Of a DNA stretch of 64,000 bases, positions 41,472-45,522 are shown in pieces. A program made the position numbers and the translations under genes. The notes below the pieces were generated by a model. It was not told where the DNA came from, made no database searches, and saw only the letters and a list, made by a program, of their open reading frames with translations. The number at the start of each line of letters is the position of its first letter. Positions within the stretch are counted from its first letter, which is position 1. Source of the stretch: Arcobacter sp. (GTDB lineage Bacteria; Campylobacterota; Campylobacteria; Campylobacterales; Arcobacteraceae); contig PKUJ01000011.1 of assembly GCA_002869565.1 (NCBI GenBank), forward strand, positions 186,001 through 250,000. Direction: 5' to 3'.

Positions 41472-42394
41472 TTAATCTTCTAGGAAATAATCACTGTCAA
41501 TTTTTTTGATTTCATAAACTACAGATATTGTTGAACCTAAGTCATAATCAATCATAAGATTGACAAGCTTTTTACCATCAATGAGTACAACTTTAGGATC
41601 AATATTTTCTACATATTGAATTGCAACATCGGAAAATTTCCCCGTAGTGATAAATACACCTTTTTTTGCTCTTTGTCCATGCAGTGCTCCAACAAATTTC
41701 TGTATCTCAGGTCTACCTACTGTTCCTTCCCATCTTTTTGCTTGTAAGTATATTACATCTAGACCTAGTTTATCTTCATTGATAATACCATCTATACCTT
41801 CGTCACCACTTCTACCAATAGATTGACCTGCATCAGCTCTAGAGCCACCATATCCCATAGCTATCATTAAGTCAACAACCAACTTTTCAAAAAAATCTGG
41901 AGTATTATCTTTTATTTTTGTTAGTAATTCTGAAGCTAAATCATTTCTAATACTTTGATATGATTTTTGTAATTGTTCCTCCGGTGTCTCATCTGAACTT
42001 GTATTAAAAGATATATCAATAGATTTATTTTTTGAAGAGGAATTATTTCTAGTTGGAGATTGAAATTCAACAAATTCTTCATATTGGTTTAAAATACTTA
42101 TATTAATCTTTTCATGACCCCTTTTAATAATTCTAATCCTCTATTTGTTATTTTAAAATGAGCACGTTTGGTTGCTTCTAATACTTTTGCTTGAATAAAG
42201 TAACTTTTTGCCCACGCAACTCTATTATCAAACTTACTTTGTGTACCACTTGGAAGAATCTCTTTTAAATCCTCTTCTGTTAAATTCATTTGATTTGAGA
42301 TAAATAATCTTGCTTCTCTTAATGAATGTTCAACTTCATCTGCTGATAACTCTAATAAAGGTTTAAAAAAAGATTGAAAATCTGGTACTGCCAT
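41472..42394 (-). pseudogene. mrr: Mrr-type restriction endonuclease, frameshifted
   Basis: Two reading frames together make one Mrr protein. The 98-residue N-terminal part (VPDFQSFFKPLLELSADEV) is the Mrr DNA-binding winged helix. It stops at 42098. The second frame is open from before 42110 and encodes KINISILNQYEEF, a linker, FFEKLVVDLMIAMGYGG and the nuclease core with GDEGIDGIINEDKLGLDVIYLQAKRW, where Asp and Gln-Ala-Lys are the catalytic pattern. Adding one base in the AAAAGGGG tract (42118-42125 on the plus strand as CCCCTTTT) would restore the frame. Mrr cuts methylated DNA. It could be a dead gene, a phase-variable gene or a sequencing error. Confidence 0.82.
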
Positions 42395-42463: not shown

Positions 42464-44026
42464 TTATAAACCTGGCGCTTTCCACATAGAAGTAGTTAAG
42501 CCTTGGTCTACAAGTTCTAATTGCTTCCTATAAAGTTCTTGCCATTTTATTTTTATCTCATCATATAGTTTTTTATTTTCCATATTTGGAAAATACTCTT
42601 TATCCCAAACTACAAGTTCTTTTGCAGCACTTGTTAGGTCTTCGTATACTTCTGCTCCAACTCCTGCACTCATTGCAGCTCCTAGTGCTGTAGCTTCTGT
42701 TACTTTTGGGATTTTGATTTTGCATCCTGTTACATCAGCTAGGGTTTGGCACCAGAGTGGTCCTTTGCTGGCTCCTCCTGCGAAGACTATTTCGTTTATT
42801 TCTAGTTTTGTGAAGGCTTTTATTTTGTCTAGGTTTATTGAGCTTACTATACAGGCATTTTCTTGTAGGGCTTTAAACATTGAGGCTTTATTGCATATTT
42901 CTGGGTCTATTGATAGGTTTATGAAACTATGGCTTGCATGATACCATTTTCCGTAATTCATACTATCTGAGAATATTGGCATAATTCCATATGAGCCTAC
43001 TGGAATATTTTTTGCTTTTTCTTCTAGTACTTCGTAGGGATCCATTCCTAACTCTTGGGCTTCTAGTTTTTCCATATCACAAAAGGCATCTCTAAACCAT
43101 CTCATTATTAGTCCACTAAAGAAAGTGATTCCTTCTGCTTGGGATTGATTTGGTATAACATGTGGATTTACTCTTAGGCTCATGTTTTCTGGTAGTTTTG
43201 CATCTGAGGATATATTTGTTATTTGTTGCCAAAATGAGCCACCTAGAATTGCAGTTTGTCCTAAGTCTATTAGCCCAAGTCCTGCGGAGCCTAATTGCAC
43301 ATCTCCTCCACCTGTTACTACTTTTGTACTTGTTGATAGTCCAGTTTCATTTGAAGCTTCGTCTGATACTGTTGCGATTACAGTTCCAACTTCATAACAT
43401 GGGCAGAATATATCATCTTTTATATCAACTTTTGAAGCCATTGAACTATCCCAAGTTCTTGTTTTCAAAGAGAAAATTCCTGTTGTCCCTCCGTTACTTG
43501 GGTCTGTTGCAATTACTCCTGAAAGTTTTGCTAAAATCCAATCTCCTATCATAGAGATATTTGCTACTTTTTCATAAATCTCAGGAGAATTATTTTTAAG
43601 CCACATGATTCTAGGAAGTGCACCTAATGCAAATGTTTGTCCAGAAATTTCATAAAACTCTTCTTCAATGCCTACAAAAGACTCTTTTAGATACTTAACC
43701 TCTTTAGAAGCCCTTGCATCAACATTTGCAACTGCCCAGAGCTCTTTTCCATCTTTATCATAAAGAACGATACCTTCTCTCATACTTGTAGCACTTAGAG
43801 CTAGTATTTCATCAGGGGTTACTTCTGATTTATTTATTACCTCTTTAATACAGTTTTTTGTTAGTTCCCAATTTGAATCAAAATCAAAGGACATAGAACT
43901 TGGTACATTTTCTTCTTCTAAATGTGTCCATTCTGTTTGACTTGATTCTATTTGATTACCATTTAAATCAAATAATACTGCTCTTACACTCCCCGTTCCT
44001 GCATCTATTGCTAAAAGATATGACAT
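42464..44026 (-). CDS. lsrK: Autoinducer-2 kinase LsrK-like (FGGY kinase)
   Basis: A 520-residue FGGY-family sugar kinase that resembles E. coli LsrK along its whole length: LLAIDAGTGSVRAVLFDLNGNQI, TSMREGIVLYDKDGKELWA, ANVDARA, DPSNGGTTGIFSL, VTGGGDVQLGSAGLG, RWFRDAFCDMEKL, PIFSDSMNYGKWYHAS, and the end LVDQGLTTSMWKAPGL. LsrK phosphorylates DPD (AI-2) inside the cell. Codon choice leans to CTA, ATA, AGC and GCC, unlike neighbours that prefer TTA, ATT and GCT, which suggests transfer. It is the last gene of a three-gene unit with an aldolase and an ABM protein. No Lsr transporter or LsrR is nearby. Confidence 0.88.
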   Translation of the reverse strand: MSYLLAIDAGTGSVRAVLFDLNGNQIESSQTEWTHLEEENVPSSMSFDFDSNWELTKNCIKEVINKSEVTPDEILALSATSMREGIVLYDKDGKELWAVANVDARASKEVKYLKESFVGIEEEFYEISGQTFALGALPRIMWLKNNSPEIYEKVANISMIGDWILAKLSGVIATDPSNGGTTGIFSLKTRTWDSSMASKVDIKDDIFCPCYEVGTVIATVSDEASNETGLSTSTKVVTGGGDVQLGSAGLGLIDLGQTAILGGSFWQQITNISSDAKLPENMSLRVNPHVIPNQSQAEGITFFSGLIMRWFRDAFCDMEKLEAQELGMDPYEVLEEKAKNIPVGSYGIMPIFSDSMNYGKWYHASHSFINLSIDPEICNKASMFKALQENACIVSSINLDKIKAFTKLEINEIVFAGGASKGPLWCQTLADVTGCKIKIPKVTEATALGAAMSAGVGAEVYEDLTSAAKELVVWDKEYFPNMENKKLYDEIKIKWQELYRKQLELVDQGLTTSMWKAPGL

Positions 44027-44035
44027 TGGTAGTTC

Positions 44036-45202
44036 CTATTTTTTTAGTTTTGCTTGTTCTAGTTCCCAGTATTCCATTTCAAAACTATCAGATAAACTGA
44101 TACTTTCATACCCACCTAGTTTATCAGCTTTTAAAACTGCATTCATAGTGTGAGATACAATATCATCTAAAATATTTGCTTCTTTTTCATTTTTCCCAAA
44201 AGTAATAATTCCAAAATCTTTTACAACAGCATAGTTTGGTGCAGGATTTAGCATAATCTCATCTTTTGAAAACTTGTTGAAATAGTTTTTATATAAAGCT
44301 TTATATTCATTAATTGCTTCTTGAATATTTTTATCTTCTATTACAAGTGGAACTCTTTTTGTTCTTATAATATGTTCAGGAGTTAAGACACCTCTTGTTA
44401 TAGTCTCTTTGTCTAAAGATGAATAATAAAGTGCTAAAGGAGTTTGATTTACTTTACACACCATATCTGTGCCTTTTTCTTTTGATATAAGTTCCAAAAG
44501 AGCTTGAACATCAAAATCATTTGCTTTTAGATTAGGTAGTTTATAAGAGGCATTTTCTTCTAAAAATTCTTCTGCTTTACTTACTGCCTCAATCATTTTG
44601 TAATAAGATTTTTTCGCATCATCATCAAAAGTAAAAATACCATGATTGTGCAAGATAATTCCTTCACAAGTATTCCAATCAATATCTTTACTCATATTAT
44701 ATATTTTTTGTGCAAGGATAAATCCTGGCATTACATATGGAACAATTAAAAAGTTTGGAAAAACTTTTTTAATATTTTCAACTCCGCTTTTAGAGTTTGA
44801 AATAGTAACCACTGCATCAGCATGGGTATGGTCTACAAATTTAAAAGGAATAATAGCATGTAAAATAGCTTCCACAGATGGATTTGGAGCAGTTTTATCA
44901 ATCATTGCAGCTTTTTGTTGTGATACCATATCCATATCAGATAAAGTCTCTAATTTAGCCATCTCTTTTAAAGTATCAAGTTTTACAGGTGCAAAACCTT
45001 CTTTTTTGATTGATACTAAATCCCAACCACTACCTTTTACATATAAAATTTCTTCCCCATCTAAAACAGATTTAACAGAAGTATTTCCTCCACCATGAAG
45101 AACTAGTTCATCACTTCTACCTAATAGATTTGAAGTATATATTCTTAAAGCTAAATCACCTTGAAAAGACTTTGCTTCATTTTCATCCCAAAGATTTTTC
45201 AT
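44036..45202 (-). CDS. Class II aldolase/adducin domain protein
   Basis: A 388-residue protein of the class II aldolase family. LVLHGGGNTSVK and LYVKGSGWDL are typical substrate/phosphate loops; HAIIPFKFVDHTHADAV gives the zinc ligand His-x-His, and ILHNHGIFTF a third His. It resembles the N-terminal half of the 650-700-residue bifunctional aldolase/short-chain dehydrogenases of the rhamnulose-phosphate type, but lacks the dehydrogenase half. It lies 3 bp after the ABM gene and 9 bp before the LsrK-like kinase. It may split the phosphorylated product of the kinase. The substrate is inference. Confidence 0.8.
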   Translation of the reverse strand: MKNLWDENEAKSFQGDLALRIYTSNLLGRSDELVLHGGGNTSVKSVLDGEEILYVKGSGWDLVSIKKEGFAPVKLDTLKEMAKLETLSDMDMVSQQKAAMIDKTAPNPSVEAILHAIIPFKFVDHTHADAVVTISNSKSGVENIKKVFPNFLIVPYVMPGFILAQKIYNMSKDIDWNTCEGIILHNHGIFTFDDDAKKSYYKMIEAVSKAEEFLEENASYKLPNLKANDFDVQALLELISKEKGTDMVCKVNQTPLALYYSSLDKETITRGVLTPEHIIRTKRVPLVIEDKNIQEAINEYKALYKNYFNKFSKDEIMLNPAPNYAVVKDFGIITFGKNEKEANILDDIVSHTMNAVLKADKLGGYESISLSDSFEMEYWELEQAKLKK

Positions 45203-45205
45203 TTT

Positions 45206-45490
45206 TTAACCTAAAATTTCTAAATGTTCTGTGTACTTCTTCTCACAAAATGGTTCAAACGATGATTTATAAATTGCATAATGTTCAGTTTTTGCATGTC
45301 CCGCTAATCCTTCTTCCGTCCAAGATTCTACTGCATAAAATTTTCTTCTATTTTCTGTACATTGAAAAATATCATAAAAAAATAGACCTGGCTCTGCTTT
45401 TGATGGTTTAACCATCGCAGTTAATAGTTCTTTCATTTTATCTTCACAACCCTCTTTTGCAATAAAAGTCACTCTTTTAGTGATAGTCAT
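45206..45490 (-). CDS. ABM-domain monooxygenase (LsrG-like)
   Basis: A 94-residue protein from the ATG at 45490, which has AAGGAT seven bases upstream; an ATG two codons earlier (45496) sits too close to that site. It fits the dimeric alpha/beta ABM (antibiotic biosynthesis monooxygenase) domain: VTFIAKEGCEDKMKELL, EPGLFFYDIFQ, FYAVESWTEEGLAGHAKTEHY. E. coli LsrG, which changes phospho-DPD, has the same fold and size. With the LsrK-like kinase two genes away, an LsrG-type role is plausible but not proven; quinol monooxygenase is the other option. Confidence 0.72.
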   Translation of the reverse strand: MTITKRVTFIAKEGCEDKMKELLTAMVKPSKAEPGLFFYDIFQCTENRRKFYAVESWTEEGLAGHAKTEHYAIYKSSFEPFCEKKYTEHLEILG

Positions 45491-45522
45491 TTTCATATCC
45501 TTATTTATTAAATTAAAGTTAT

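Follow-up and report, generated by a model that had tools for sequence, protein, structure and literature searches.

What does a kinase for autoinducer-2 (AI-2) do in a bacterium where no Lsr importer is found beside it, and which enzyme completes the breakdown of its product where LsrF is missing? These questions are raised by a three-gene unit of Arcobacter sp. (GCA_002869565.1, labeled G000 in our surveys), located in a 64-kb stretch of contig PKUJ01000011.1 that we analyzed as a whole and call the window. The unit lies on the minus strand and encodes, in this order, a protein of the antibiotic biosynthesis monooxygenase (ABM) domain, a class II aldolase, and LsrK. With spacers of 3 and 9 bp, it is a real, co-directional unit, as an earlier note on this DNA had described it. 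Judged from its genes, the operon likely serves intracellular salvage of 4,5-dihydroxy-2,3-pentanedione (DPD; AI-2), with LsrK acting on DPD and the aldolase acting in the LsrF step as the core of the pathway. What would be new is a variant of the known catabolism of phosphorylated AI-2 with a non-orthologous aldolase; the genomic evidence for it is strong, and from it we infer the reactions.

The kinase (42464..44026, minus strand, 520 amino acids [aa]) matched the NCBIfam model NF008187, "autoinducer-2 kinase," with 847.3 bits over residues 1-520 (cut-off, 528), and was 53% identical to E. coli LsrK (275/519 aligned residues), which is also its closest solved sequence (5ya0). The end-to-end match to LsrK reported in the earlier note was therefore reproduced. 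All 10 residues of the putative DPD site (T21, S91, M92, R93, D253, V254, F276, Q278, E308, and I310 in E. coli numbering; the list comes from the available text of PMC8016206 and is itself derived from models) are as in E. coli. The same 10/10 was found in 54/54 readable Campylobacterota LsrK loci (57 examined; 3 had no open reading frame [ORF] carrying the motif used), and 4/10 in the second FGGY kinase of the window's genome, as counted by eye from the printed residues. By its family score and putative DPD-site residues, the kinase is thus assigned as LsrK. The surface that contacts HPr in the E. coli complex, which we do not take as family-defining, presented a different pattern: E122, A155, and M210 are replaced by Y, K, and K, respectively, I148, L151, L152, and A211 by other hydrophobic residues, and only L123 and Y162 are kept. 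Two to six of the nine contact positions were kept in the 54 Campylobacterota loci, whereas in a mostly enterobacterial set of 79 loci, 63 kept 8/9. Since this surface is mostly altered, although partly conservatively, control of LsrK by HPr appears less likely here.

The aldolase (44036..45202, minus strand, 388 aa; PF00596) is the proposed replacement of LsrF. It corresponds to the aldolase half of the PRK08324 family, and no short-chain dehydrogenase/reductase (SDR) domain was found in it by a domain scan. Its match to the bifunctional aldolase/SDR model NF006196 (445.6 bits, below the cut-off of 831) covers positions 1-400 of 657, in agreement with the earlier description of the enzyme as half of a known bifunctional one. 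Similarly, the match to TIGR02632, the bifunctional rhamnulose-1-phosphate aldolase, scored 209.8 bits against a cut-off of 567.75 and stops at 405 of 676. Residues E111, H125, H127, and H187, which we take to be the catalytic glutamate and the three metal-binding histidines of E. coli FucA, were conserved in 51/51 alignment rows of this aldolase branch. The predicted model (mean pLDDT, 85.6) has an archaeal class II aldolase domain, 3m4r, as its closest fold, followed by other class II aldolases, including L-fuculose-1-phosphate aldolases; the search also lists two class II aldolases from Bacillus thuringiensis, 6btd and 6btg, presumably enzymes of the dihydroxyacetone phosphate (DHAP) shunt.

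The first gene (45206..45496, minus strand) encodes an ABM-domain protein of 96 aa (PF03992), which we propose as an isomerase of phospho-DPD (P-DPD) in the role of LsrG; its profile match to the LsrG alignment was 97.8%. Its first ATG is at 45496, but the second, at 45490 (94 aa), which the earlier note had used as the boundary, agrees better with the starts of homologues. A scan for promoters and terminators found sites no more frequently than in shuffled sequence.

The rest of the Lsr system was not found around the operon. In a tblastn search of the window with eight E. coli Lsr proteins (E 1e-5), LsrB, LsrC, LsrD, and LsrR gave no match above 45 bits, and the sole Lsr match besides the kinase was an LsrA-like ATP-binding cassette (ABC) ATPase with 28% identity. 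LsrF was not found in the window's whole genome at E 0.001, whereas LsrB and LsrR were sought in the window and the fetched loci. Within these scopes, the absence of importer, LsrR, LsrB, and LsrF pointed out before holds.

To place the operon among its relatives, we surveyed an even draw of 397 Campylobacterota genomes (thresholds, E 1e-150 or better for LsrK, 1e-20 or better for the aldolase, and 1e-15 or better for the ABM protein). LsrK was found in 62 genomes and the aldolase in 64, with an overlap of 62; the two assemblies with the aldolase only are fragmented (about 230 and 280 contigs). The cluster, which the earlier note had called an orphan, is thus a recurring Campylobacterota cassette and not a one-off. 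In the window's own family, LsrK passed the family cut-off in 30/104 genomes. LsrK and the aldolase are no more than 5 kb apart in 40 of the 62 genomes, while in the other 22 they are on different contigs (18) or farther apart on one contig (4), so that linkage alone is insufficient to explain their co-occurrence. The ABM protein was found in 59/64 aldolase genomes compared with 2/333 others, both of the latter only 36% identical. As these 64 genomes represent 20 genera in 8 families, the per-genome counts overstate independence. No LsrF proper was found among the 64 (56 without a match and 8 with only partial matches at 26 to 30%), and all 64 had LuxS.

The cassette was placed in many unrelated gene contexts, a few of which bear on the substrate. 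Seven genomes, all of one genus, have luxS divergent from the aldolase match at a distance of 104 to 110 bp; six of them have the ABM gene and lsrK alongside, and the contig of the seventh ends at the aldolase. The luxS identity was confirmed by a family model in L090 and L097. In G035, the ABM match is 81 bp upstream of luxS, with the aldolase and lsrK elsewhere. The gene for S-adenosylmethionine (SAM) synthesis, metK, is found in L045 in the order metK-ABM-aldolase-lsrK and in L099 in the order ABM-lsrK-metK-aldolase, being named in L099 from its first residues only. Locus L098 (5153-13590) carries the operon-like run ABM-lsrK-metK-mtnK-mtnA-aldolase/SDR-mqnE. These links to the genes for LuxS and SAM synthesis fit DPD as the substrate. 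As side observations, the L098 run unites genes for AI-2, methylthioadenosine, and radical-SAM by-products, and the aldolase of L099 (8340-11066) lies in a 908-aa open frame, compared with about 654 aa for the usual aldolase/SDR fusion. A conserved partner importer or regulator was also sought by Pfam scans of 40 neighboring proteins and was rejected: an ABC importer and a glycerophosphodiester phosphodiesterase accompany the cluster at just two loci, L033 and L034, and the only neighbors that recur in more than one genus are a cupin (5 loci) and a methyltransferase-like protein (4 loci, of which three belong to one genus).

We then considered which enzyme occupies the lsrF slot in lsr operons elsewhere. 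We collected 90 LsrK loci, consisting of 80 contig loci (the best of 508, mostly enterobacteria) and ten plasmid loci picked for variety from 79 LsrK records. LsrF was found in 66 and the class II aldolase in 14, with no locus having both. Lsr operons of the alphaproteobacterial type, which encode LsrB, LsrR, LsrK, and an LsrG-like ABM protein, had the aldolase in 11/11 cases read and LsrF within the locus in 0/11. Their plasmid hosts are S. meliloti, Ensifer, Rhizobium, Thalassospira, Alloyangia, Paracoccus, Tritonibacter, and a record that is labeled Roseateles and listed as unverified, and three further operons are on contigs of Rhizobium or Agrobacterium. All 11 share one layout, i.e., an importer and a regulator-kinase pair, the LsrG-like ABM gene after lsrK, and the aldolase beside lsrB, and their aldolases are stand-alone enzymes of 413 to 418 aa. 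An LsrF search, which covered the plasmid collection, listed Sinorhizobium matches of about 30% identity that are annotated, where at all, as aldolase or class I fructose-bisphosphate aldolase. As a side observation, six Serratia loci (L124, L129, L131, L133, L135, and L146) have lsrK and lsrG but gave no match to LsrF, LsrB, or the aldolase in the surrounding 10 kb or so, and thus show a further reduced form of the Lsr gene set.

Taken together, the aldolase in 62/62 LsrK genomes, the luxS linkage, and the aldolase in the lsrF slot of lsr operons strongly support what the earlier note had suggested as one possibility, namely, that a class II aldolase may replace LsrF on AI-2 phosphate. The S. 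meliloti operon is given as lsrBDCARKG in PMC2561040, so that the lack of lsrF there is in effect already in print; the word aldolase does not occur in the available text of that paper, which also reports S. meliloti to be without luxS. The available part of PMC3420918 lists a Rhizobiales gene set with fructose-bisphosphate aldolase and xylulose kinase as look-alikes of LsrF and LsrK. Our full-text literature search found no proposal of a class II aldolase as the LsrF replacement, although the replacement may already have been noticed in the primary papers on S. meliloti, on LsrG, and on the survey of LsrB.

In the pathway we propose, LuxS, whose gene is present elsewhere in the genome, would release DPD in the cytosol, and LsrK would phosphorylate its C5 hydroxyl to give P-DPD, as suggested by orthology and the intact site. 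The ABM protein would isomerize P-DPD to 3-hydroxypentane-2,4-dione 5-phosphate, i.e., the LsrG step, a role suggested by its modeled fold, by its gene position, and by its co-occurrence. The class II aldolase would then take the LsrF step by cleaving the C2-C3 bond, releasing DHAP as a metal-bound enediolate, and the partner product, in our proposal, would be acetate formed from the hydrated C2 ketone without coenzyme A (CoA). The genomes argue strongly that the aldolase replaces LsrF; to acetate as the partner product we give about an even chance. Because class II aldolases stabilize the DHAP enediolate on a metal ion, cleavage of a hydrated C2 ketone to acetate and DHAP would, by analogy, be a small step from their normal chemistry. 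In the canonical route, according to the available text of PMC8016206, LsrG isomerizes P-DPD, and LsrF then transfers an acetyl group from the hydrated isomer to CoA, so that DHAP remains; the LsrF structure paper (PMC2728841, part available) had earlier proposed an aldolase cleavage between C2 and C3 to acetate and DHAP. Since no Lsr importer or LsrR lies nearby, the operon probably disposes of, or recycles, a by-product of the activated-methyl cycle rather than serving quorum sensing.

Several observations weigh against this reading. On the LsrG model NF007791, the ABM protein scored 24.7 bits against a cut-off of 135, which was narrowly missed also by the ABM proteins of S. meliloti (110 bits) and Thalassospira (121.3 bits). 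E. coli LsrG (3qmq) ranked fourth for its predicted fold (TM score, 0.90; root mean square deviation, 1.4), with other ABM proteins ranking as high, and the available part of PMC12274486 gives a different role for an ABM protein of Pseudomonas aeruginosa that is also LsrG-like. The likeness to LsrG asserted before thus failed for family membership; the protein resembles LsrG in profile and modeled fold, but not specifically so. Five of the 64 aldolase genomes were without an ABM match (one at a contig edge), 9/31 LsrK loci of the window's family had no aldolase nearby, and 10 of the 90 LsrK loci had neither LsrF nor the aldolase, some of them on short contigs. A Shinella plasmid outside the 90 loci encodes LsrF at a distance of about 0.4 Mb from the locus with its LsrK and aldolase. 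In Sagittula sp. P11 (L204:1618-6947), genes for glycerol-3-phosphate dehydrogenase, a non-LsrK FGGY kinase, an lsrF-annotated gene, and a class II aldolase lie in a row; this cluster cautions that an lsrF label may not always denote AI-2. LuxS was found in 254/298 Campylobacterota genomes, so that its presence in 64/64 adds little; the comparison of 34/34 with 220/264 gave p 0.004 from a count by eye, uncorrected for relatedness. As LuxS is common across the phylum, its co-occurrence supports an AI-2 role only weakly. S. meliloti and Salmonella were reported not to grow on AI-2 as the sole carbon source (PMC3386761, part available), and use of AI-2 as food is therefore doubtful.

The aldolase tree also bears on this point. 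The best tree separates the aldolases of Campylobacterota from those of the alphaproteobacterial lsr operons, the latter being nearer to aldolases of other contexts, which does not favor our reading either. However, a single clade of the two was not rejected (p-AU 0.316), so that one or two recruitments of the aldolase to the LsrF step are both possible. Joint ancestry of the two LsrF-replacing groups, which we considered, was neither shown nor rejected.

Among the rival explanations, the closest shares its core with the reading preferred here, and the probabilities of the two overlap. In this possible but somewhat doubtful variant, isomerized P-DPD would first undergo reduction at C2, by a fused SDR or an unlinked reductase, and the resulting 5-deoxypentulose 1-phosphate would then be split by a retro-aldol reaction to DHAP and acetaldehyde. 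The reduced product would be the type of substrate used by class II aldolases of the DHAP shunt (PMC12632272, as far as available), and 17/64 Campylobacterota aldolase matches lie in open frames of more than 450 aa, consistent with an SDR domain; the full-length aldolase/SDR of L098 passed the NF006196 cut-off of 831 with 1019 bits. However, the other 47/64 are unfused by frame length, no SDR was found among the 40 neighboring proteins, and the 11 alphaproteobacterial-type operons, with their stand-alone aldolase and LsrG-like ABM protein, point to direct action on the LsrG product. A second alternative, which we consider unlikely, assigns the aldolase to the DHAP shunt, where it would act on 5-methylthioribulose or 5-deoxyribulose 1-phosphate in the salvage of methylthioadenosine and 5'-deoxyadenosine; its tie to LsrK would then reflect shared use or ancestry and not the LsrF step. 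It draws on the position of mtnK 1071 to 1094 bp from the fused aldolase in 9/17 fused-type genomes, which hints at another substrate and also counts against our reading; a gap of about 1.1 kb has room for mtnA, which was confirmed in L098 only, where the mtnK-mtnA pair is part of the gene run. Likewise, in Ensifer sp. PDNC004 (L201:6001-13275) an aldolase/SDR fusion lies near a sugar ABC transporter and about 4 kb from mtnK, possibly a DHAP shunt for imported methylthioribose or deoxyribose. The window's genome also has MtnK, on contig C18 and not beside the aldolase, whose operon is on C21. Tested in 46 of the 64 genomes, MtnK was found in 12/17 of the fused type, but among those of the single type only 7/29 had a strong match and 3 a weak one, although all 29 have LsrK and the aldolase. 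In addition, no long-frame aldolase occurred without LsrK in the 397 genomes at the thresholds used, and this explanation leaves the S. meliloti lsrF slot unaccounted for. The fused aldolase may nevertheless serve the DHAP shunt too.

That P-DPD is the effector of some regulator, with the aldolase only ending the signal, seems quite improbable: P-DPD binds LsrR in enterobacteria (PMC8016206, available text), but neither an LsrR match nor a regulator recurring across genera was found among the scanned neighbors, and the gene contexts are many and unrelated. Least probable is the related sugar pathway that the earlier note had offered as an alternative, with LsrK as a kinase of rhamnulose or another deoxysugar. 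The aldolase family does include bifunctional rhamnulose-1-phosphate aldolases, but the kinase scored 55 bits on the rhamnulokinase model compared with 847 on that of LsrK, and no rhamnose genes were found among the neighboring proteins scanned. RhaD-annotated enzymes were only 27 to 29% identical to the window's aldolase, and two RhaD proteins from rhamnose gene sets formed a separate branch with full support and differ at H36, W60, E111, and Y156. We rejected a rhamnulose-aldolase identity for the window's enzyme because of the tree, the family-model scores, and the gene context.

DPD salvage through LsrK and the aldolase thus remains our preferred reading; a broader form of it we put forward tentatively. 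The Campylobacterota class II aldolase might drain all the five-carbon residues left over from SAM into DHAP: LsrK and the ABM protein would feed in DPD, whereas MtnK and MtnA would feed in methylthioribose or 5-deoxyribose. The cell that makes AI-2 would in this case recover it as a waste product, neither importing nor sensing it, and the aldolase would split the P-DPD isomer into acetate and DHAP without CoA, which would be a new reaction.

A small Cupin_2 protein may stand in for the LsrG-type isomerase in some genomes. Strong matches to it were found in 11/64 aldolase genomes, directly after lsrK in 8 of the 11; such genes, for the Cupin_2 protein in several Campylobacterota and for a cupin-domain protein on Deinococcus and Lacticaseibacillus plasmids, follow lsrK at L033:10241-10615, L114:11563-11961, and L115:11574-11930. 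The cupin was present in 10/16 genomes whose ABM protein is less than 58% identical to that of the window or missing, compared with 1/48 with a closer ABM protein (the cut-off was set post hoc and relatedness is uncorrected). However, 6/66 LsrF loci carry both an LsrG-type and a cupin match, which counts against the cupin as a substitute for the isomerase.

The codon choice of lsrK had been read as a sign of transfer. Its deviation is real: LsrK is the most deviant in codon use of the 59 window ORFs of at least 120 aa (z -4.4), with leucine codons CTA at 45% (compared with 12%) and TTA at 27%. The aldolase is not deviant (z +1.45), and the ABM gene is too short for this list. The inference of transfer did not hold, since three of the four congeners examined share the skew, with CTA fractions in lsrK of 0.36 (L047), 0.35 (L050), and 0.29 (L040), compared with 0.18 in L048; the codon skew is therefore no evidence of recent transfer. 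L048 and L050 share the genes on both sides of the cassette, and the one flank present in L040 and L047 is also the same; with the skew common to most of the congeners examined and the flanking genes shared, we rejected recent horizontal transfer of lsrK. The leucine-codon skew of LsrK was also present in L037. Next to the operon, at 41472-42394 of the window, two ORFs carry Mrr-type restriction endonuclease domains, N-terminal at 42098-42394 and catalytic at 41472-41882, and probably represent one gene that has been broken.

In many bacteria luxS is present although no AI-2 receptor is known, and whether AI-2 is a signal or waste is debated; the available text of PMC2561040 argues for a non-signaling role. 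Genomes that have LuxS, the kinase, a putative isomerase, and the aldolase, with no Lsr importer nearby, make this question directly testable. For S. meliloti, which serves as a model of AI-2 response, the aldolase is also a candidate for the missing last AI-2-processing enzyme, and surveys keyed on lsrF or lsrB would miss such possible AI-2 consumers.

Compared with canonical Lsr catabolism in E. coli and Salmonella, the operon has in common an LsrK orthologue with an intact putative DPD site, an ABM-fold protein at the LsrG step, an aldolase-type last enzyme, and DHAP as the expected product. It differs in having a class II metal aldolase where the canonical pathway has LsrF, a thiolase of class I aldolase fold, in the lack of an importer or LsrR found nearby, and in the mostly changed HPr contacts of LsrK. 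The S. meliloti/alphaproteobacterial lsr operon (pSymB, L110) likewise combines LsrK and an ABM protein with a class II aldolase from this family, with no LsrF in the operon; however, it also has the LsrACDB importer and an LsrR-like regulator, and its aldolase, of about 416 aa, is 38 to 40% identical to that of the window. With the PRK08324 bifunctional aldolase/SDR enzymes, which include RhaD, the window's aldolase aligns over all of its 388 residues, i.e., the aldolase domain and the region that follows, but it has no SDR domain and its branch is separate from the RhaD of rhamnose gene sets. The DHAP shunt of MtnK, MtnA, and a class II aldolase presents the same succession of a kinase, an isomerase, and a class II aldolase yielding DHAP, and mtnK lies near this aldolase in nine relatives; here, in contrast, the kinase and the isomerase are different ones, and the MtnK of the window's genome is encoded on another contig.

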